In this document: in pieces, positions 26,414-39,770 of the stretch
Position numbering within the stretch: position 1 is the stretch's first letter
Layout of the letters: each line of letters opens with the position of its first letter
DNA from: a virus
Length of the DNA stretch: 39,982 bases
Strand: one strand, 5' to 3'
IMG/VR virus record: IMGVR_UViG_3300029397_000037
Coordinates: 1 to 39,982 of that record
Made by a program: the position numbers and the translations under genes
Notes under the pieces: model-generated
What the model was told of the DNA's origin: nothing
The model's database searches: none
What the model saw: only the letters and a program-made list of their open reading frames with translations

Positions 26414-26836
26414 ATGATGATGGCACTGGGTCTGTTCGTGTTCAGCCTGGACACGGCCCCGTATGCGGAGTTTCAACGCCAGATCGGCTGGCGCCACCCC
26501 GGCAACAATCGGGTCGGCCGCCGCCCATCGCACCAATTCACCGGCCCGGACGACGAAACCATCACGCTATCGGGCAAGCTGGTGCCCGAGCTCACCGGCG
26601 GCGAATGGACGCTCGCCGCGCTGGAAGTCATGGGCGACAGCGGCGAATCTCACACGCTCATCGAGGGCACCGGCCGCTACTACGGCCAGTTCATCATCGA
26701 CAGCCTGGACACCACCCGTACCTACTTCTTCCAGGACGGCGCCGCCCGCGTGTGCGACTTCACCATCAAGCTGACCCGCGTAGATGACGGCCTGCTGTCC
26801 AAGGCGGCGAGCGTTGCAACGGACTTGCTGCGATGA
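26414..26836 (+). CDS. U: Tail protein U, P2 gpU family
   Basis: 140 residues from ATG 26414 (three consecutive ATG codons allow one- or two-residue differences). Tail-terminator-type protein. Family stretches: ALGLFVFSLDTAPYAEFQRQ, IGWRHPGNNRVGRRPS, HQFTGPDDETITLSGKL and SLDTTRTYFFQDGAARVCDF. It starts two bases after the T stop and overlaps D by four bases. Confidence 0.94.
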   Translation: MMMALGLFVFSLDTAPYAEFQRQIGWRHPGNNRVGRRPSHQFTGPDDETITLSGKLVPELTGGEWTLAALEVMGDSGESHTLIEGTGRYYGQFIIDSLDTTRTYFFQDGAARVCDFTIKLTRVDDGLLSKAASVATDLLR

Positions 26837-27930
26837 CGGACAAGCACACCACCGCCCTCTCCCCCCGCCCGGCCTACCGCATCAAGGTGGGCGACAAAGA
26901 CATCACCGACCGCTTCCAAGGCCGGCTGATCGAGCTCACGCTCACCGACAACAGCGGCTTTGAAGCGGACCAGCTCGACATCGAGCTCGACGACAGCGAC
27001 GGCAAGCTCGACCTGCCCGAGAAAGGGGTACGCCTGGCGCTGTCGCTCGGGTGGGCAGATTCCGGCCTGGTGGACAAAGGCACCTACAAGGTGGACGAGC
27101 TGGAGCACAGCGGCCCGCCGGATCGGCTCATCATCCGCGCGCGCAGCGCAGAGATGGACGGTGGCCTCATCACCCGGCGCGAAGACTCGTATGCCGACAA
27201 GACCGTCGCGGAAGTCGTCCAAGCCATCGCTCTGCGCAACAAGTTCACCTGGTTGGTCGGCAAGAAGCTGGCCGGCCAAGTCATCACCCACGTGGATCAG
27301 ACCGGCGAGTCAGACGCCAACTTCCTCTCGCGGCTGGCGAAAGAGTTCGACGCCATTGCCACGGTGAAGAACGACAAGCTGCTATTCATTCCCGCCGGAG
27401 AGCCGACCAGCGGGTCGGGCCTGCCGCTGCCCACGGTCAGCATTACGCGCGCGTCGGGCGACACCCACACCTTCAGCGTTGCCGATCGGGAGAACTACAA
27501 CGGCGTGAAGGCGCACTACCAGGACACGCGCGCCGGCGTGCGTGGTGAGGTGGTCATCGATGCTTCCAATGCCGTGGCCACCAAAGAGAAGCGCACCACC
27601 AAAGAGAAAAAGAAGAAGCAGGAGACGGTGCAGGCCGACCCGAACCCGGACAACGTGAAGGTGCTGCGGCACACATACGCGTCACGGTCCAACGCCGAGC
27701 GGGCTGCACGGGCGGAATGGCAGAAGATTCAGCGCGGCGTGGCGACGTTCAACATCACGCTGGCGCGCGGGCGGGCGGAGCTGTTTCCCTCGTTGCATGC
27801 GAAGGTGAGCGGGTGGAAGCCGCAGATTGATGGGACGGGCTGGTCTGTCGGCCGTGTTGTTCACAGCTTGAACGACAACGGTTTCATAACAACCATCGAT
27901 CTTCAGATCGCTTCTAACAAGGTTAGTTGA
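26833..27930 (+). CDS. D: Tail protein D, P2 gpD family (baseplate hub)
   Basis: 365 residues (P2 D 387). A gp27-like hub that joins the tube to the spike. Family features: RPAYRIKVGDKDITDRFQGR, LTDNSGFEADQLDIELDDSD, GTYKVDELEHSGPPD and RVVHSLNDNGFITTIDLQIA. A Lys-rich loop (TKEKKKK, about residue 255) sits between domains. Last gene of the FI-to-D operon; it ends ~100 bases before an intrinsic terminator. Confidence 0.95.
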   Translation: MTDKHTTALSPRPAYRIKVGDKDITDRFQGRLIELTLTDNSGFEADQLDIELDDSDGKLDLPEKGVRLALSLGWADSGLVDKGTYKVDELEHSGPPDRLIIRARSAEMDGGLITRREDSYADKTVAEVVQAIALRNKFTWLVGKKLAGQVITHVDQTGESDANFLSRLAKEFDAIATVKNDKLLFIPAGEPTSGSGLPLPTVSITRASGDTHTFSVADRENYNGVKAHYQDTRAGVRGEVVIDASNAVATKEKRTTKEKKKKQETVQADPNPDNVKVLRHTYASRSNAERAARAEWQKIQRGVATFNITLARGRAELFPSLHAKVSGWKPQIDGTGWSVGRVVHSLNDNGFITTIDLQIASNKVS

Positions 27931-28029: not shown

Positions 28030-28052
28030 ATCCAACTTTGGGTTGGATTTTT
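28030..28052 (+). terminator. Intrinsic terminator after the late tail operon
   Basis: ATCCAAC (28030-28036) pairs with GTTGGAT (28042-28048) around TTTGG, followed by a T-run to 28052. It is placed to end the FI-to-D transcript, but its T-run is only three bases before the ATG of the next gene. Confidence 0.8.
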
Positions 28053-28055
28053 CTC

Positions 28056-29720
28056 ATGCGTCTTACCGATTCGGCTGCCACCAAGCTTGAGCACTACTTC
28101 TTGGACATTAAGTTCGCGCCCTTAGCCCTCAGCGCCATTAGCGAGTTGCTGGCTGAAGTACTGAAGGAAGCACCGCCCCCTGCCGAGGAGATGGAAGGAG
28201 AGTTGGCAGCAGCCTTCCTTGAGAGGCTGATTCCTCTAGTACAAACAGCCATCATCAAGAAACAGCAGGCATATGGCGCTGTGCAGTGGCTTTGGTACCT
28301 TCGTCGAATGCCGGAGTTCCCCTTGATGGGTAGTTACCATACGACGCTTGCGTACGACCTCGCATTGGCAGAGTCGCTATCTTGGTATTGCCCGCAAACT
28401 GGTGCCAGCCCCTCGGGCAATCCCCTCGCCTTCAACTGCGATGAGTCAGTTGCAAGACACCTCGCAAGGTTTATTGGAAGAATCAAGCTGCTGTCGCAGC
28501 TCCACATCGCCTATCGGCGGGTCGGCAAGGGTTCAAGACTGACGGTCAGTTCAAAGGAAGTACGTTTTCATACTGACGCTGCAACAGAAGCCGCCATTAA
28601 TCTCTATGACGAGCGGCATGACGCTGCGCGACAACACAATGGCGGTCGACTTGGGATCGCTGAAGGAAATACTGACTTCACCGATCCGGAACATTTCTCA
28701 GAGCCCGACATAGCGAGAGCGCACCTTGTGTTCGGCTTCCATGGCGACAAAATAGACGCCCCAACACTTTTCCCGCATGAAGGACGGCTTGTAGCCGGTC
28801 TTGTCGCAACGCGCTTCATTCTTCAATCCGCAAGTGTCGACCGTATCATCCGCCCTTTTTTGGCGGGAAACGGGCCAACGCCCGCCTATGTGCAACAACT
28901 GTCGGCATTGGTGCTGCTCCTGATTTTGTTGCCCTCACTTTTCGTTGAGTTCCCATGGGCGTTTTCGACCGTTCAGCAACGTGGGTACTTCTTAACTATG
29001 GGTGCGCAACTCCGGGCATGGGCAGACAAGAACTTAGAGCATGTAGCAAGGCAGCTCTCTGAGCGCTACCCAGAGATCGTTTGGCCCGGCAAGTACGACG
29101 ACTGGATCAATAGCCTTAACTCTATTGAACCGAACCTGTGGCCACTGAAGTCCGGAGGTGTCCTGCGAAAGTTGGGAGAAATTACGCTCATAGACTTTTC
29201 AGCAGCGACTAGTTCCTTACTTGCTGGGCAGCAAATTGATAGAGACCCGGCCATAGGGAACGTTCGAGCAGGCATCTTCGAGGATGAATGCCAGGAAATC
29301 ATCGATGCAAGCTCATGGGTGCCGCCGGACGCGCTCAAGCAACAGCGCCGAAAGCAGCTAAGGCGTAATGGAAACAAAATCACTGATGTCGATGCCGTCG
29401 GCTGCCGGGATGGCCAACTGCTCCTGGTTTCCTGCAAGAGCCTCGTCTACGACGGTGACTATGACAAAGGCGTACTCCGGGTGGTGAAGAACCTTCAGTC
29501 AACCATTGACAAGGCCGTTGCCGATTGGAACGCCAAGATTGAGGACATTCGCAACAACCCAAGGGGAGACAACTTCGATTTTTCCGGGTACCGCGAAATA
29601 CACGGAGTCGTATGCACGCCCTTCGTGGCCTACTCGAATACGGCGGCAACCCTCCAAAGGTCTATCTTTGGATGGCACGCATGCGCCTCTGCCGAGGAAC
29701 TGCGGAATGCCCTGGCCTGA
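28056..29720 (+). CDS. PD-(D/E)XK-like nuclease-domain protein, accessory (possible defence)
   Basis: 554 residues from ATG 28056; a TTG at 28038 inside the terminator is the only near alternative, and neither has a clear ribosome site. The first ~380 residues are mostly helical with one hydrophobic stretch (LSALVLLLILLPSLFVEFPW). The C-terminal part resembles a restriction-endonuclease fold: Glu409-Asp-Glu (IFEDECQEII), Asp444/Asp446 (ITDVDAVGC) and a strand ending Ser459-Cys-Lys461 (LLLVSCKS), where ExK would be usual. It is much less GC-rich than gene D. Position behind the tail operon and fold suggest a defence or exclusion nuclease; no named system is recognised. Confidence 0.78.
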   Translation: MRLTDSAATKLEHYFLDIKFAPLALSAISELLAEVLKEAPPPAEEMEGELAAAFLERLIPLVQTAIIKKQQAYGAVQWLWYLRRMPEFPLMGSYHTTLAYDLALAESLSWYCPQTGASPSGNPLAFNCDESVARHLARFIGRIKLLSQLHIAYRRVGKGSRLTVSSKEVRFHTDAATEAAINLYDERHDAARQHNGGRLGIAEGNTDFTDPEHFSEPDIARAHLVFGFHGDKIDAPTLFPHEGRLVAGLVATRFILQSASVDRIIRPFLAGNGPTPAYVQQLSALVLLLILLPSLFVEFPWAFSTVQQRGYFLTMGAQLRAWADKNLEHVARQLSERYPEIVWPGKYDDWINSLNSIEPNLWPLKSGGVLRKLGEITLIDFSAATSSLLAGQQIDRDPAIGNVRAGIFEDECQEIIDASSWVPPDALKQQRRKQLRRNGNKITDVDAVGCRDGQLLLVSCKSLVYDGDYDKGVLRVVKNLQSTIDKAVADWNAKIEDIRNNPRGDNFDFSGYREIHGVVCTPFVAYSNTAATLQRSIFGWHACASAEELRNALA

Positions 29721-29959: not shown

Positions 29960-30514
29960 GTGAGCAACAAGACGAACATCAAGCAGAGCATTTCCGCCGG
30001 CAATGGCAACGTGCAAATCGGCCAGGTGATCCTATGCGGGTCCGCCGCCCGTTCACGCTGCCCCACTCCGCCGGCGCCAGCCAAAGAACGCATGACCACC
30101 GAGCAACGGGCAGAACTCACCCACATCGCATTACAGATTGAACTGGAGGAAGATGGCGCCGTGGACGCCGGCACCGTTTGGAAAGCCTTGTGCAACCACC
30201 TCAACGGCCGGGGCTTACAAGACGTGAGAGACAACACTGAGTTGTCTCACGAGCAGTACTGGGCAGCCCGATCCTATTTGGATGGCTGGTTATCCTGCGC
30301 GCGGGGTGAAAACCTGCCGCGTACCGGCATGATTCGGGAGATCATGCGGATGTGGGGACTTCGGGGTGGGCTTCGAGCGTCCACAATGGCGTTGTGCGAA
30401 ACACGGTTTCGTGCGACTACGCTGGGCGATCTAACAGACGCCCAACTACGGGCAGCGCTATGGGTTACGGTGGCAGATTGGCGCGCATACTGGACGCAAC
30501 TGGAAACCAACTAA
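29960..30514 (+). CDS. ORF6C-like regulatory protein with NVQIG motif
   Basis: 184 residues from GTG 29960, with GGGAGA upstream. The N-terminus (TNIKQSISAGNGNVQIGQV) is a short beta-type repeat motif seen ahead of ORF6C-type domains in phage regulators. A Cys/Pro-rich linker and then a helical domain follow (AELTHIALQIELEEDGAVDA, VWKALCNHLNGRGLQDV, LSHEQYWAARSYLDGWLS). The repressor at 33207 ends with a similar motif (GGSNNVQVGNV), so the two may share an assembly mode or partner. An antirepressor/regulatory role is plausible, not shown. Confidence 0.68.
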   Translation: MSNKTNIKQSISAGNGNVQIGQVILCGSAARSRCPTPPAPAKERMTTEQRAELTHIALQIELEEDGAVDAGTVWKALCNHLNGRGLQDVRDNTELSHEQYWAARSYLDGWLSCARGENLPRTGMIREIMRMWGLRGGLRASTMALCETRFRATTLGDLTDAQLRAALWVTVADWRAYWTQLETN

Positions 30515-31447: not shown

Positions 31448-31903
31448 CTACACCTTCGGCGCGCACTTCCTCAACACCGGGCTCCCGATAATGCGCCCAC
31501 CACCGGTACACACCCAGGCAACCTTCGCGCCCTTCTTGAGCGAAGCGGCCACCGCCTCATGCTCCTTGTCCAGGTACGCATGCACAGGCATGAACGGATT
31601 GCCGGCGCCAAGCTTCACAACGATGCCGTCGGTAAAGTCCTTGTCGATGCTCTGCACCGTACCGCTCACCAGCAGGCTCTTGCCTTTGTACTTCTGATCG
31701 GCCGCCACCTCGTTATCGTCGTAGGCCCGGAACAGCGCTTCGGCCTTGACTGGTAGGGGCGGCTCGGCAGCGTCTGCGCTCTCCAACACACTGCCCGCAC
31801 TCGGGGCACCGCCTGCCGCCGGCTTTGGCTTCATAAGGTTGCTGATCGCACTGATGATGAACACGGCAATCGCCAACCCAAACAGCAACTTCACTACCTT
31901 CAT
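31448..31903 (-). CDS. Membrane-anchored OB-fold (tRNA_anti-like) protein
   Basis: 151 residues from ATG 31903 (AGGAG upstream). An N-terminal anchor or uncleaved signal (VVKLLFGLAIAVFIISAISN) and an Ala/Gly/Pro linker precede an OB-fold: VKAEALFRAYDDNEVAADQK, YKGKSLLVSGTVQSIDKD, VAWVCTGGGRIIGSPVLRKC. This resembles the tRNA_anti-like OB domains in small exported proteins of unknown role. Two Cys near the end suggest a disulfide in the periplasm. It is the last gene of the leftward group that begins with the repressor; one copy of the 47-bp repeat lies upstream. Confidence 0.8.
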   Translation of the reverse strand: MKVVKLLFGLAIAVFIISAISNLMKPKPAAGGAPSAGSVLESADAAEPPLPVKAEALFRAYDDNEVAADQKYKGKSLLVSGTVQSIDKDFTDGIVVKLGAGNPFMPVHAYLDKEHEAVAASLKKGAKVAWVCTGGGRIIGSPVLRKCAPKV

Positions 31904-31933
31904 CACTTCTCCTTTCTATCGTCCCGACACGCT

Positions 31934-31982
31934 GGTTGATAAAAAGGCTGTATGCCGCGCCCCCCCGCGCAGCTACTGCTCT
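31934..31982 (-). repeat. 47-bp terminator-like repeat, copy A
   Basis: 49 bases, nearly identical to 33156-33202 apart from two extra C and a few substitutions. On the minus strand it reads as a GC-rich hairpin (GCTG...CAGC closing) followed by CTTTTTATC. It lies between the WYL-BRCT gene and the OB-fold gene and ends 30 bases before the latter's start. Confidence 0.78.
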
Positions 31983-32052: not shown

Positions 32053-33126
32053 CTACTCCATCATGAGCGCGATCGCTTCGTCTTCATTCATTACTGGAAT
32101 CCCAAGCGCCTCGGCCTGAGCAAGCTGCTTGTGCCCCACCAACGGCCCGGCAACCACATAGGTCACGGTCCTGGTGATTCTCTCTCGCACATCCCAGCCA
32201 GCTTCCAACGCGCGCGCCTCCAAGGCGTCGCGTCGAGTAGGGTGCAGGCCAGCGAAGACCACCGCTGTCTGCCAATCCCATGCCTCCGCTTTGCGCCGAC
32301 CTCTTTCCTTCCGTCTGGTCGAATCCGGCGACATCGCTACAGCGGAAAGCCAAGAGGCTGCGCTCATGACTTCCCCCGTCTCTGAGCGGGTAACTGAGCC
32401 AACAATGCGGTGGATCAGGAAAGAGCGCGTCGCCTTTCGATCATGGTCGTGCGCGTCCATGTATGGCCTGCCCTTTATGTCCACCACCTGAAACGCTGTC
32501 ACCGTGCGCCTCTGCTGCGTTCCATCGGCCTTGCGATACCGGAATGAAATTGTGTCGGGGAGTTGGATCGGTTCGACAGTTGCCGACAGGTACATCTCCG
32601 GTGCCCTGCCCTTCGACTTTGCTGCCGGCGTAGCCCGTCTCGGCGGCTGAACCGAATCAGACTGAATGGTCGGCGCCCCACTCGCTTTCGTGCCAGTTGC
32701 ACTTGCGCTGGTCGGAAGGCTAGACGGCGCCATCTGACGCACGTCGCCGGGCACGTAATTGAGCTCCCGCCACCACGCACCGAGCCGCTCGCGCAATGGC
32801 CCTGAAACGGGACGCAAAACTGGCTTAACTGCTAGCCCTGGCGCCTTCGTCGCTACCTGGCCATATCGGTGATATGCCCAACAAGTTCCAAAGGTGAACA
32901 GCCACATTAGCAACTTGCCGCCATCGCCCCAATCATCGTCATTTGACACTACTGCCGCACAGACGAACATGAAGGCGGGAACATGCGCGGCAAAAAGCGC
33001 AATCAAGTGCCCGCGCCACCGTGGCCCACCTCGGGCAACGTGACCACGAACCAATTCAAGCCATCCCCAAGCGGTCAGCCAAACATAACCGACCAAAATT
33101 CCGATGCTGGCAAACGCGTCCTGCAC
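32053..33126 (-). CDS. Membrane protein with WYL-like and BRCT domains
   Basis: 357 residues. Two or three N-terminal membrane segments (about 4-26, 38-62, 70-86) and a long Ser/Pro/Ala linker (about 110-185) precede a WYL-like strand set (ISFRYRKADGTQQRRTVTAF, RPYMDAHDHDRKATRSFLIH) and a C-terminal BRCT domain (VVFAGLHPTRRDALEARALE, VTYVVAGPLVGHKQLAQAEA, GIPVMNEDEAI). WYL domains bind nucleic acid or ligands and BRCT domains bind DNA ends or phosphoproteins, so a membrane-bound DNA sensor is conceivable. It lies between the repressor and the OB-fold gene, in the leftward lysogenic direction, flanked by both 47-bp repeats. Confidence 0.78.
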   Translation of the reverse strand: MQDAFASIGILVGYVWLTAWGWLELVRGHVARGGPRWRGHLIALFAAHVPAFMFVCAAVVSNDDDWGDGGKLLMWLFTFGTCWAYHRYGQVATKAPGLAVKPVLRPVSGPLRERLGAWWRELNYVPGDVRQMAPSSLPTSASATGTKASGAPTIQSDSVQPPRRATPAAKSKGRAPEMYLSATVEPIQLPDTISFRYRKADGTQQRRTVTAFQVVDIKGRPYMDAHDHDRKATRSFLIHRIVGSVTRSETGEVMSAASWLSAVAMSPDSTRRKERGRRKAEAWDWQTAVVFAGLHPTRRDALEARALEAGWDVRERITRTVTYVVAGPLVGHKQLAQAEALGIPVMNEDEAIALMME

Positions 33127-33155: not shown

Positions 33156-33202
33156 GGTTGATAAAGAGGCCGTATGCCGCGCCCCCGCACGGCCACTGCT
33201 CT
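33156..33202 (-). repeat. 47-bp terminator-like repeat, copy B
   Basis: Four bases after the repressor stop and 29 before the WYL-BRCT start. On the minus strand GGCCGT and ACGGCC close a GC-rich hairpin followed by TCTTTATC. Compared with copy A, one stem pair changes from C-G to T-A on both sides, which supports a real hairpin. Confidence 0.78.
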
Positions 33203-33206
33203 GTGC

Positions 33207-33656
33207 TTATTTCTTCGCCTTCTTGACCGCCGGCGCTTTCGTCCGGACGTTGCCAACTTGGACGTTGTTCGAGCCGCCCACAATGATCTGGGAGCGCTTG
33301 CCCGCCTTCACAGGCTGCACGTCAGTGGCAGGGGCCGAAAGCCCGCCAATCAGCGCAAGCACACCCGCGCGCCCGCGCGCATCGAGTTCCCGATAGCCGG
33401 CCACCACTGCGTCTTCCTCTGGTGACATCAGGGAAGTCATATGCCTGCCCGTCACGATGTAGAGAACGTCGGCGCCGTTCGCGCCCCAGCCGGCCAGGGA
33501 CAAGATCCCGGGCTCGCGTTCCCCAGATTCGTAGTTCGAGTAGGTCCGCAAGGCCACACCGCCGAGTTGGGCCATTTGAGTTTGGGACAACCCCAGCCGC
33601 ACCCGCTCTCGCGCGAGCCGCACGCCGAATTGCAACATTGTGCTATCCATGCTCAT
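33207..33656 (-). CDS. XRE-family phage repressor (immunity/C-like)
   Basis: 149 residues from ATG 33656; ATG 33650 two codons later is possible. The N-terminal helix-turn-helix is clear: FGVRLARERVRLGLSQTQMA, QLGGVALRTYSNYESGERE. A helical middle (SPEEDAVVAGYRELDARGRA) and a C-terminal tail with GGSNNVQVGNV and a basic end follow. No LexA/CI-like protease site is seen, so SOS cleavage is not predicted. It is divergent from the early operon, with palindromes in the 66-bp space between, which is the usual immunity-region arrangement. It would hold the lytic promoter off and may be the head of the lysogenic operon. Confidence 0.86.
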   Translation of the reverse strand: MSMDSTMLQFGVRLARERVRLGLSQTQMAQLGGVALRTYSNYESGEREPGILSLAGWGANGADVLYIVTGRHMTSLMSPEEDAVVAGYRELDARGRAGVLALIGGLSAPATDVQPVKAGKRSQIIVGGSNNVQVGNVRTKAPAVKKAKK

Positions 33657-33661
33657 TACAC

Positions 33662-33695
33662 GCACGTTCGTGCATATCATTAGCCTTCATATGCA
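33662..33695. promoter_or_regulatory. Candidate repressor operators in the immunity region
   Basis: GCACG (33662-33666) TT CGTGC (33669-33673) is a perfect small palindrome; TGCATAT (33671-33677) and ATATGCA (33689-33695) form a second, overlapping inverted repeat. Both lie between the divergent repressor and RHH genes, in the only A+T-rich patch there. Confidence 0.62.
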
Positions 33696-37064: not shown

Positions 37065-39770
37065 ATGAACCTCGACCTCTCCTCCGCCCTTGCGTCGCGC
37101 CTGGTGCGCGACTACGGCTTCAAGGAACGATCGAACAAGCTGGAGAACGGCACCTGCCCCTCCTGCGGAAAACGCTCGCTGTGGGCCTTTGCAGATGCGC
37201 CCTGGGTCGTGCGCTGCAACCGGCTGAACAACTGCGCAGCCGAGTACCACGCCAAAGAGCTGTACCCCGATCTCTTCGCCTCCTGGAGCGACCGTTACGT
37301 CAAAACTGCGGAAGCGCCCAACGCAGCAGCCGACGCCTACATGCGCGACGCACGCGGCTTTGACCTGGCGCGCGTCGCTGGCTGGTACACGCAAGAGAGC
37401 TACTACAGCCACGAGCTGAAGATCGGCAGCGCCACCGTCCGCTTCCCCTTGAGCGAAGGCCGCTACTGGGAACGCATCATCGACCAGCCCGAGCGCTTTG
37501 GAGACCGTAAAGCCACGTTCAGCGGCTCATACGCGGGCACCTGGTGGCAGCCGCCCACCCTGCCGGCCCAGCCAAAAGAGCTGTGGCTGGTGGAGGGCAT
37601 CTTTGATGCCATCGCCCTGCTGCATCACGACGTGGCGGCAGTCGCCACGTTCTCTTGTTCGCACTACCCGGCCGCCGCATTGGCCGCGCTGGCCGAGCAA
37701 TGCGCCGCCGGCGGCCACAAGCGCCCGCACCTGGTGTTTGCCCTGGACAACGACGCCGCCGGCCGGCGCTACGCGCTCAAGCACATCGAGCGCGCCCGCA
37801 ACGATGGCTGGTCGGCGTCGGCTGCGCTGCCCAAGCAGGCCGGCAAGACCAAGCTCGACTGGAACGAGCTGCATGTGCGCGACCGCCTTTCCAAGCGGGA
37901 CCTGGACGAATATCGCTACCTGGGCGACCTCTTCACCGCCGCCACGCCATCGGACAAGGCGCGCTTGATGTACCGCCGCACGGGCGACGCGAAGTTTCCG
38001 TTCGAGCACCGCAACCGCCTGTACTCGTTCAAGCTCGACCTCGACGCCTTCCAGCGCGAAAGCACGACCGTGCGCGAGGTGCATGAAGACATGGCGGAAG
38101 ACGAGGTGCGCGAGCACGCCCTCCAGCGCGCCTGCATCGTGCAGCCCATCGCCAACTGCCTGCCCACCGCGCTCTACTACCAGGCCAGCCCGCAGACAGA
38201 CGAGTCCTGGTACTACTTCCGCGTCGCCTTCCCGCATGATGGCCAGCCCATCAAAGCCACGTTCACCAGCGCGCAAATCGCCAGCAGCAGCGAGTTCAAG
38301 AAGCGCCTGTTGGGCGTGGCCCCGGGCGCCATGTACACGGGCACCGGCCAGCAGCTCGACGAATACCTGGAGAAGCAGCTCGCCCACATTCCAACCGTGC
38401 AGACCATCGACTTTGTGGGCTACACCAAGGAATACGGCTGCTACGTCTACGGCGACGTGGCGGTGAAAGGCGGCAAGCTCTTTCGGCTGAACGACGAAGA
38501 CTTCTTCGACATCGGCAAGCTCTCGGTTAAGACCATCAGTCAGGCTGCAACGCTGTCCCTCTCCACTGACGTGCAGGGCATGCAGACGACCTGGTTGCCG
38601 CTGCTGTGGCAGGCCTTCGGCCCCAAGGGCCTGGCCGCGCTGGCGTTCTGGTTTGGCAGCCTGTTCGCAGAACAGATCCGCCAGGAGCACAAGAGTTACC
38701 CCTTCCTGGAGCTGGTGGGCGAGCCAGGCGCCGGCAAGACGACGCTCATTGAATTCCTCTGGAAGCTCTGCGGCCGGCGTGACTACGAAGGCTTCGACCC
38801 GAGCAAGTCATCGCTCGCCGCCCGCGCCCGCAACTTCGCCCAGGTCGCCAACCTGCCCGTCGTGCTCATCGAGGGCGACCGCGGCGACGAAGGCGCCAAG
38901 CAACGCGGCTTCGATTGGGACGAGCTCAAGACCGCCTACAACGGCCGCAGCACCCGCGCGCGCGGCATGAAGAACGGCGGCAACGAAACGTACGAACCGC
39001 CCTTCCGTGGCGCCATCGTCATCAGCCAAAACGCAGAAGTCAGCGCCAGCGACGCCGTCCTCCAGCGGATCGTCCATATCTATTGCGACCGCTCGGCACA
39101 AACGTCAGCCACGCGCGCTGCAGCCGAAGCGCTGGAGCGCATTCCCGTCGAGGATGTGTCCGCCTTCCTCCTGGCCACCGTTATGGCCGAGTCCAAAGTG
39201 CTGGAAACCTTCGCCGCCCGCGTGTCTGCTCACGAGCAGGCCTTGATGGCCCGCCCCGACATCAAGACCGTCCGCATCGCCAAGAACCACGCGCAAATCA
39301 TGGCGATGGTCGACAGCATGCGCCACGTGCTGCCGCTCACCGACGAGCAGCATGCCGCCGCCCTGGACGAGCTGGGCCGCATGGCCGCAGCGCGCCAACA
39401 GGCCATCAGCGCGGATCACAAGCACGTACAGCAGTTCTGGGAGGTGTACGAGTACATCGAGTCGGCCGACGACGACCGCCCGATCCTCAACCACGCACGC
39501 GGCGACGGCCTCATCGCCATCAACCTGCAGCACATGGAACAAGTCGCCGGCGAGCGCCGCATCGAGCTGCCCCCGATCGCGGAGCTCAAGCGGGTGCTCA
39601 AGACGTCTCGTCAGCGCAAATTCGTCGACATCCGCGCCGTCAACAGCGCGATCAACGCCCACCACAACCGCGAATACCTGCACGCCCCCAAACGGCCGGA
39701 AACGGTCAAGTGCTGGGTGTTTGAGTCGCCGTCTTCCAAGCAACACAGCAACACAGGAACCCCAGCATGA
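37065..39770 (+). CDS. Replication primase-helicase (zinc finger, TOPRIM, P-loop ATPase)
   Basis: 901 residues. Zinc-binding head Cys31-x2-Cys34 ... Cys51-x5-Cys57 (GTCPSCGKRSLW, VRCNRLNNCAAEYHAKELY); TOPRIM core with Glu177 (ELWLVEGIFDAIALL) and Asp228-Asn-Asp230 (VFALDNDAAGRRY); a large middle part; then a helicase domain with Walker A at about residue 550 (ELVGEPGAGKTTLIEFLWKL) and Walker B-like LPVVLIEGDRGDE. This resembles P4 alpha/toprim-type replication proteins of P2-like Burkholderia and Ralstonia phages, not P2 gpA, so replication should be origin-dependent theta-type. The C-terminus (about 700-900) is helical and may bind the origin. It overlaps alpA by ATGA. Confidence 0.92.
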   Translation: MNLDLSSALASRLVRDYGFKERSNKLENGTCPSCGKRSLWAFADAPWVVRCNRLNNCAAEYHAKELYPDLFASWSDRYVKTAEAPNAAADAYMRDARGFDLARVAGWYTQESYYSHELKIGSATVRFPLSEGRYWERIIDQPERFGDRKATFSGSYAGTWWQPPTLPAQPKELWLVEGIFDAIALLHHDVAAVATFSCSHYPAAALAALAEQCAAGGHKRPHLVFALDNDAAGRRYALKHIERARNDGWSASAALPKQAGKTKLDWNELHVRDRLSKRDLDEYRYLGDLFTAATPSDKARLMYRRTGDAKFPFEHRNRLYSFKLDLDAFQRESTTVREVHEDMAEDEVREHALQRACIVQPIANCLPTALYYQASPQTDESWYYFRVAFPHDGQPIKATFTSAQIASSSEFKKRLLGVAPGAMYTGTGQQLDEYLEKQLAHIPTVQTIDFVGYTKEYGCYVYGDVAVKGGKLFRLNDEDFFDIGKLSVKTISQAATLSLSTDVQGMQTTWLPLLWQAFGPKGLAALAFWFGSLFAEQIRQEHKSYPFLELVGEPGAGKTTLIEFLWKLCGRRDYEGFDPSKSSLAARARNFAQVANLPVVLIEGDRGDEGAKQRGFDWDELKTAYNGRSTRARGMKNGGNETYEPPFRGAIVISQNAEVSASDAVLQRIVHIYCDRSAQTSATRAAAEALERIPVEDVSAFLLATVMAESKVLETFAARVSAHEQALMARPDIKTVRIAKNHAQIMAMVDSMRHVLPLTDEQHAAALDELGRMAAARQQAISADHKHVQQFWEVYEYIESADDDRPILNHARGDGLIAINLQHMEQVAGERRIELPPIAELKRVLKTSRQRKFVDIRAVNSAINAHHNREYLHAPKRPETVKCWVFESPSSKQHSNTGTPA

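Follow-up and report, generated by a model that had tools for sequence, protein, structure and literature searches.

What is the function of a prophage gene that lies behind the repressor gene and whose product joins predicted membrane helices, a WYL domain, and a BRCT domain in a single chain? This question is raised by an IMG/VR virus record of 39,982 bases, which was analyzed here at its full length (the window). The record is a P2-like prophage with an integrase gene (1-1236), tail genes, a gpD gene (26833-27930), and a primase gene (37065-39770), and the tail sheath region shares 73-75% identity with the corresponding region of P2-like Burkholderia phages. The host of the virus belongs to Ralstonia-type bacteria, and the repressor gene keeps the virus dormant. 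Features of the locus are listed in Table 1.

Table 1. Positions of the features of the locus in the window.
Feature	Coordinates	Strand	Properties or evidence
Membrane-WYL-BRCT protein gene	32053..33126	(-)	357 aa, GTG start
N-terminal membrane module, residues 1-90	32857..33126	(-)	hydropathy, AlphaFold2 helices, loop charges
Disordered linker, residues 122-184	32575..32763	(-)	pLDDT under 50 (AlphaFold2)
WYL domain, residues 190-262	32341..32559	(-)	PF13280, Foldseek
BRCT domain, residues 286-356	32059..32271	(-)	PF00533, VIA-align
Xre-type HTH repressor, 157 aa, directly upstream	33207..33680	(-)	HTH_3 E=5.3e-9
GC-rich hairpin leader copy 1, 5' of the WYL-BRCT gene	33156..33191	(-)	about -20 kcal/mol
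Hairpin leader copy 2, 5' of the Sie-like gene	31934..31969	(-)	repeat of copy 1
OB-fold protein, 152 aa, next gene downstream	31448..31906	(-)	PF12869 E=2.2e-20; phrog_8545 'superinfection exclusion Sie-like' E=4.8e-30

Architecture of the 357-aa protein

The original prediction that this protein carries WYL-like and BRCT domains was borne out by a Pfam search, in which PF13280 (WYL) matched residues 192-241 with 38.6 bits against a cut-off of 21.8 (E=1.1e-9) and PF00533 (BRCT) matched residues 289-349 with 22.1 bits against a cut-off of 21.3 (E=1.9e-4); fold searches agreed with both calls. This WYL domain was the only one in the whole record. The AlphaFold2 model, built from 12 sequences, showed the WYL domain as a five-strand barrel and gave the BRCT domain a BRCT fold, both at pLDDT values of about 80-90. 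The best Foldseek matches of the model were the WYL proteins PafBC, BrxR, and CapW and the BRCT proteins RFC1, LigA, and Rad4, and ssDNA-bound structures of CapW and DriD were found among the lower-ranked matches. When profiles were searched against solved structures, the BRCT part led to RFC1 and LigA, and the WYL part led to PafBC. VIA-align placed the BRCT part next to Rad4 (Z 10.7; 72 residues, 1.6 A) and RFC1 (Z 10.6); its match list consisted entirely of BRCT proteins and therefore bears on the BRCT domain, not on the WYL domain or the membrane part.

The predicted membrane segments were likewise upheld, as hydropathy, AlphaFold2 helices, and loop charges concurred. Hydropathy placed three helices at residues of about 8-26, 41-61, and 70-88, the third being the weakest, and AlphaFold2 modeled helices at residues 2-32, 38-60, and 68-89 with a pLDDT of about 60. 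Lys plus Arg counts in the loops were, from the N-terminus, 0, 4, 0, and 3. Because these charges favor an N-out, C-in orientation, the WYL-BRCT head is predicted to be cytoplasmic. Residues 1-90 matched no Pfam family, and an HTH part was not found in the protein by Pfam; hydrophobic helices occupy the N-terminus instead.

Three full-length relatives, 83-91% identical, were found in two virus contigs (L002 and L003) and in Ralstonia sp. UNC404CL21Col (L004), where phage genes surround the gene. When these were compared with the window, dN/dS was 0.26-0.29 overall, 0.21-0.29 for the membrane module, 0.18-0.22 for the WYL domain, and 0.07-0.17 for the BRCT domain; the linker (residues 91-189) had the highest values of the gene, at 0.46-0.55. 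The membrane module is thus maintained by purifying selection. Since all three full-length relatives keep all parts under such selection, sequence comparison confirmed that the membrane-WYL-BRCT architecture is real and not a product of chance. Another Ralstonia-group genome (L010, 1-3330) contained a decayed remnant in which only the C-terminal part was left, with neighbors of the same slot.

Position behind the repressor

As had been stated originally, the gene lies behind the repressor gene. The repressor is of the Xre type and is encoded directly upstream on the same strand; homologues of this repressor precede the WYL-BRCT gene in relatives as well. Wherever the genes fell inside the fetched stretch, the IMG/VR and prophage loci had the order primase (-), repressor (+), WYL-BRCT (+), and gpD (-). 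The gene was on the repressor strand, first or second behind the repressor, in the window, L002, L043, L038, L076, L079, L080, L077, and L078, and the same position was occupied in Mannheimia phage PHL101, Vibrio phage PV94, and Yersinia phage vB_YenM_201.16. Gaps from the repressor stop measured 80 nt in the window and L002, -4 nt in L043, 129 nt in L076, 2 nt in L079, and 15 nt in L080, with 3, 26, and 14 nt in PHL101, PV94, and the Yersinia phage, respectively. One small gene lay between the repressor gene and the WYL-BRCT gene in L038, L077, and L078, and several did so in L004; by a reading of ORFs only, one gene separated an HTH protein gene from the WYL-BRCT gene in L044 and in L087 (Pseudomonas phage SC_8_H2H8_2017). 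Phage Cartapus was an exception, with an integrase gene and a RES gene between the two, and in the record of phage 500465-1 the neighbors on the repressor side look like host genes. Because the loci were found by homology and not by random sampling, this regularity is descriptive and carries no P value. The usual first or second place behind the repressor, on its strand, supports a putative role for the gene in the lysogenic state.

The further suggestion that the gene belongs to a lysogenic transcription unit is less secure for the window itself, as the 80 nt between the repressor gene and the WYL-BRCT gene hold a strong hairpin, which makes their co-transcription uncertain. This 36-nt hairpin repeat, which in the window precedes both the WYL-BRCT gene and the Sie-like gene, recurred in front of these genes in L002, L003, and L004, with the copy 5' of the WYL-BRCT gene seen in L002 and L004. 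It was not called a terminator by a terminator scanner, and could be a shared leader, a weak terminator, or a recombination seam.

Other genes of the region were also inspected. The repressor-linked slot of related phage contigs held an AriA/OLD-like ATPase gene in L003 (2212-3726, minus strand) and a gene for a DUF6414 protein (E=1e-18) in L002 (6331-7374, minus strand). A 184-aa protein of phrog_5825, with no known function, is encoded in the window at 29960-30514 (plus strand), and its relatives lie beside the variable slot in L002, L003, and L004. Just after gpD, the gene at 28038-29720 (plus strand) encodes a 560-aa protein that searches of Pfam, PHROG, and PADLOC left unmatched and whose C-terminus DVDAVGCRDGQLLLVSCKS resembles by eye a PD-(D/E)XK nuclease motif; a close relative is encoded at 10949-12613 of L004.

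Linkage to the repressor would also suit a sensor of lysogeny or induction, in which the head reads host DNA damage (single strands or ends) and tunes the repressor switch, while the membrane anchor holds the head off DNA until needed. After DNA damage, the SOS-independent WYL regulators PafBC and DriD react to ssDNA, and RexA reportedly biases the lambda switch (PMC11077077). Moreover, several repressors, including that of the window, are short HTH proteins in which Pfam found no peptidase part, so that an added damage input would be sensible. However, the 357-aa protein contains no HTH or other effector domain, and anchoring in the membrane suits a regulator of the switch poorly. The longer repressor of L043, which is S24/LexA-type by eye, would already read SOS, and yet the gene is kept there. 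We regard an induction sensor as unlikely.

Variability of the slot raised another explanation, namely that the gene is plain cargo whose host-facing task lies outside phage conflict and which persists in a place where cargo is tolerated. One fused relative (L039), in which a single weak hydrophobic stretch at the N-terminus is accompanied by a helical part, indeed has no phage genes nearby. Recurrent repressor linkage across divergent phages, on the other hand, argues for a lysogen-specific task, and cargo of this kind seems quite improbable.

Distant relatives and exchange of the membrane module

A tblastn search with the whole 357-aa protein against named phages and plasmids gave no match, and distant relatives were reached, in sampled genomes, only via phrog_2561, core profile A6, and divergent members. 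They were found in Peduoviridae (P2-like) prophages and phages, and many were only 26-36% identical. The combination of domains had been called rare; full-length WYL-BRCT proteins were indeed found in only 4 of 389 sampled Burkholderiales species genomes. The description was incomplete, as the combination recurs in divergent P2-like phages. Three forms were distinguished. Predicted N-terminal membrane helices were combined with WYL and BRCT in L036/L043, L038, L042/L076, L079, and L080; in some membrane-fused relatives the Pfam WYL score fell below the cut-off and the WYL call rests on the core profile. A structure model of L042/L076, made from two sequences, had a pLDDT of 42 and was too poor for use. 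Soluble WYL-BRCT proteins were encoded in L016, L017, L044, L045, L077, and L078, in Mannheimia phage PHL101 (ORF34), Vibrio phage PV94 (gp04), and Pseudomonas phage SC_8_H2H8_2017, and in E. coli phages 500465-1 (gp44) and Cartapus (gp32). The third form, membrane helices with WYL, was seen in gp02 of Yersinia phage vB_YenM_201.16 (hypothetical, 185 aa), which shares predicted membrane helices and a WYL domain with the window protein and is encoded between the repressor and integrase genes, but differs from it in having no BRCT domain.

Three loci of the soluble form (L016, L077, and L078) had a gene for a hydrophobic-helix protein preceding a WYL-BRCT gene whose product has no membrane helices of its own, and in L016 a small membrane-WYL gene lay directly 5' of the soluble WYL-BRCT gene. 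Such an arrangement, with a separate one-hydrophobic-helix gene before the soluble WYL-BRCT gene, was noted in these P2-like loci (L016, 1080-1430 and 1504-1998; L077, 4282-4737). By eye, the C-termini of the proteins encoded at 301-1041 of L016 and at 4282-4737 of L077 are alike. No viral relative of the L016 core was found, and the mixed alignment A2, intended for a search of viral contigs, contained no conserved stretch.

To which known family does the core belong? PHL101 ORF34, 500465-1 gp44, and Cartapus gp32 are members of phrog_2561 and have the same WYL-BRCT core, which is thus an existing phage family; the PHL101 copy lies behind CI. Unlike the window protein, the phage members of this family are soluble, 160-172 aa long, and without a membrane module, and they form a separate clade. 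Phage WYL-BRCT proteins carry the annotations 'DNA ligase' or 'exonuclease' (NC_008201.1, 24798-25316; NC_049342.1, 29456-29938; NC_070909.1, 22813-23295), and no ligase or nuclease domain was matched in these three proteins. Judged by the domains matched, the family name 'DNA ligase' is misleading, and we correct it here.

That name nonetheless bears on a further alternative, in which the protein is a phage DNA metabolism factor, for instance an accessory protein with a BRCT domain that is one subunit of a split DNA ligase or that anchors replication. The phrog_2561 'DNA ligase' profile matched residues 195-355 (E=3.6e-12), the BRCT domain is LigA-like, and the PDB contains a heterodimeric ligase from a phage (9hu3) with a BRCT-like match at the end of its chain B. 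Yet the NAD-ligase adenylation domain PF01653 was found neither in the protein nor in the whole record, Pfam showed no ligase part in the protein except BRCT, and the gene lies in the repressor unit, on the strand opposite to the primase gene. A role of this kind appears very improbable. The PADLOC model PDC-S48 was considered as an assignment and rejected: only its positions 286-405 (the BRCT part) matched, and the N-terminal positions 1-220 were unmatched. The N-terminal part of that model, probably a DnaQ-like exonuclease, has protein matches in almost every genome.

A tree of 20 cores separated membrane-fused from soluble forms with 100/99 support, and the fused form made up one clade. Several independent membrane fusions were considered and found unsupported, since presence or absence of the module needs only one change on this tree. 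Within the fused clade, the cores of L076 and L079 were 80% identical, whereas alignment of their N-terminal parts gave a z of 0.8; conversely, the N-terminal module of L043 was common to L038 (z 6.6) and L076 (z 8.2), with cores only 36-37% identical. No homology of the window-clade module to those of other clades was detected by hhalign with shallow profiles, and in shuffled alignments between these modules z stayed below 2 for almost every pair, with L002/L080 reaching 3.6. Because neither approach detected a relation, a single ancestral membrane module is not claimed. These comparisons, made on a short alignment and some 20 sequences, indicate that the WYL-BRCT head is kept while the membrane part is replaced.

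A possible prophage guard

The DNA-binding sites of both domains were compared with those of characterized proteins. PafB mutants at R181, Y196, R204, R208, and R211/R214 lose ssDNA binding (PMC11804915). In an alignment, these positions correspond to R207, Y222, R230, R234, L237, and R240 of the window protein, so that five of six PafB groove residues are present, in keeping with the positively charged ligand groove of PF13280. For the BRCT domain the picture was different. RFC1-type BRCTs contact phosphate through the Thr of their 'TG' motif. At this position all four Ralstonia-type proteins have Ala292, and every other BRCT-bearing relative in the comparison has Thr. Arg299 is kept, and a Lys stands at or beside the pocket position, where the alignment is uncertain. 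The 357-aa protein thus lacks the Thr-Gly pair that closes strand 1 and, together with basic partners, characterizes phosphate or 5'-end binding of the RFC1 type, which weakens the original proposal that DNA ends could be sensed. Evidence from these residues for nucleic-acid binding by the WYL domain is stronger than that for end binding by the BRCT domain. A DNA-sensing reading is reasonable because ssDNA-binding WYL proteins (PafBC, DriD, CapW) and DNA-binding BRCT proteins (RFC1, LigA) are known. The window protein has the WYL fold in common with PafBC, DriD, BrxR, and CapW and shares most of the PafB ssDNA-groove residues; the WYL transcription factors PafBC, BrxR, and CapW, however, have an N-terminal winged HTH where the window protein has its membrane module. 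The passage of the 2014 survey by Makarova that lists BRCT among the domains combined with WYL names no protein for this combination and describes neither a membrane part nor a phage context or function (PMC4012209). In the open-access literature searched, neither the membrane fusion nor its slot behind the repressor was found described, and a literature search returned nothing joining BRCT, P2-like, and prophage and nothing on PDC-S48.

A further parallel is offered by lambda rexAB and P. putida RexABpp: both are located behind CI, and each pairs a DNA-binding protein with an effector in the membrane (PMC12894663; PMC11077077). Like rexAB, the window gene is codirectional with, and lies behind, a CI-type repressor gene, and its product likewise has DNA-binding and membrane parts, here predicted, whereas Rex consists of two proteins. 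RexB has four predicted membrane helices and the window protein three. The structural similarity reported for RexA in its paper is to RdgC, and that paper mentions neither WYL nor BRCT. Both RexA and RdgC were absent from the best 50 Foldseek matches listed, an absence that does not exclude similarity. No homology to RexAB emerged from these comparisons, and we do not file the protein as a RexAB member.

Our preferred reading, which we hold tentatively, is that the protein may act as a single-chain Rex-like prophage guard, analogous to the lambda RexA/RexB pair. Three N-terminal helices would anchor it in the inner membrane, with the WYL and BRCT domains reaching the cytoplasm on a flexible linker. 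A superinfecting phage or another event would expose single strands or DNA ends, which the head would bind; the membrane module would then respond, probably via membrane disturbance or a growth stop, and the infection would fail. Expression in the lysogen, nucleic-acid binding, membrane output, and protection against phages are what we infer.

This guard reading is favored because the repressor-linked position, the probable DNA-sensing head, and the maintained but exchangeable membrane part resemble RexAB and RexABpp, and because the fused clade stays membrane-bound although its module was exchanged (L076/L079). It is also favored by the contents of the same slot, which holds the OLD/AriA-like ATPase in L003 and a Sie-like protein, by the pairing of a separate hydrophobic-helix gene with soluble WYL-BRCT in L016, L077, and L078, and by the known anti-phage hotspot between cI and integrase in P2-related Vibrio phages (PMC9122126), whose place is occupied by PV94 gp04. 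It is weakened by the membrane module, which matches no known family, by the Ala in place of the 'TG' Thr in the four Ralstonia-type proteins, by the hairpin that separates the gene from the repressor gene in the window and makes shared transcription uncertain, and by the Cartapus version, which sits behind an integrase gene and another gene and not directly behind the repressor. Moreover, soluble forms lie behind CI in PHL101 and PV94 without an annotated adjacent membrane partner, and the output may therefore not be at the membrane.

Part of the same evidence would fit an entry block, in which the head, bound to the inner membrane, would attach to ends or single strands of phage DNA as it comes in and would directly hinder its entry, circularization, or replication without killing the cell. 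The predicted topology with a cytoplasmic head, the BRCT fold close to RFC1 (whose structure is solved with DNA), and the Sie-like neighbor gene agree with such a block. Against it, the BRCT phosphate pocket is partly degenerate in the Ralstonia-type clade. We consider an entry block rather unlikely.

A broader form of the guard reading, possible but more doubtful, is that these proteins make up a new guard family in which phage DNA would be recognized by the WYL-BRCT head and an exchangeable membrane effector, part of the same chain, would be driven directly by it. If so, WYL would serve as the sensor of a membrane effector and not of a transcription factor or enzyme, and P2-like phages would have exchanged the effector time and again in the place behind their CI repressor. 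The analysis names an unstudied gene family in the slot where lambda-type and P2-type phages keep guards. Should the membrane form prove to be a one-chain sensor-effector, it would provide a compact route to what prophages sense during superinfection, the long-open Rex question. The soluble form was present in 172 of 5,426 complete E. coli genomes, and the head is thus testable in E. coli.
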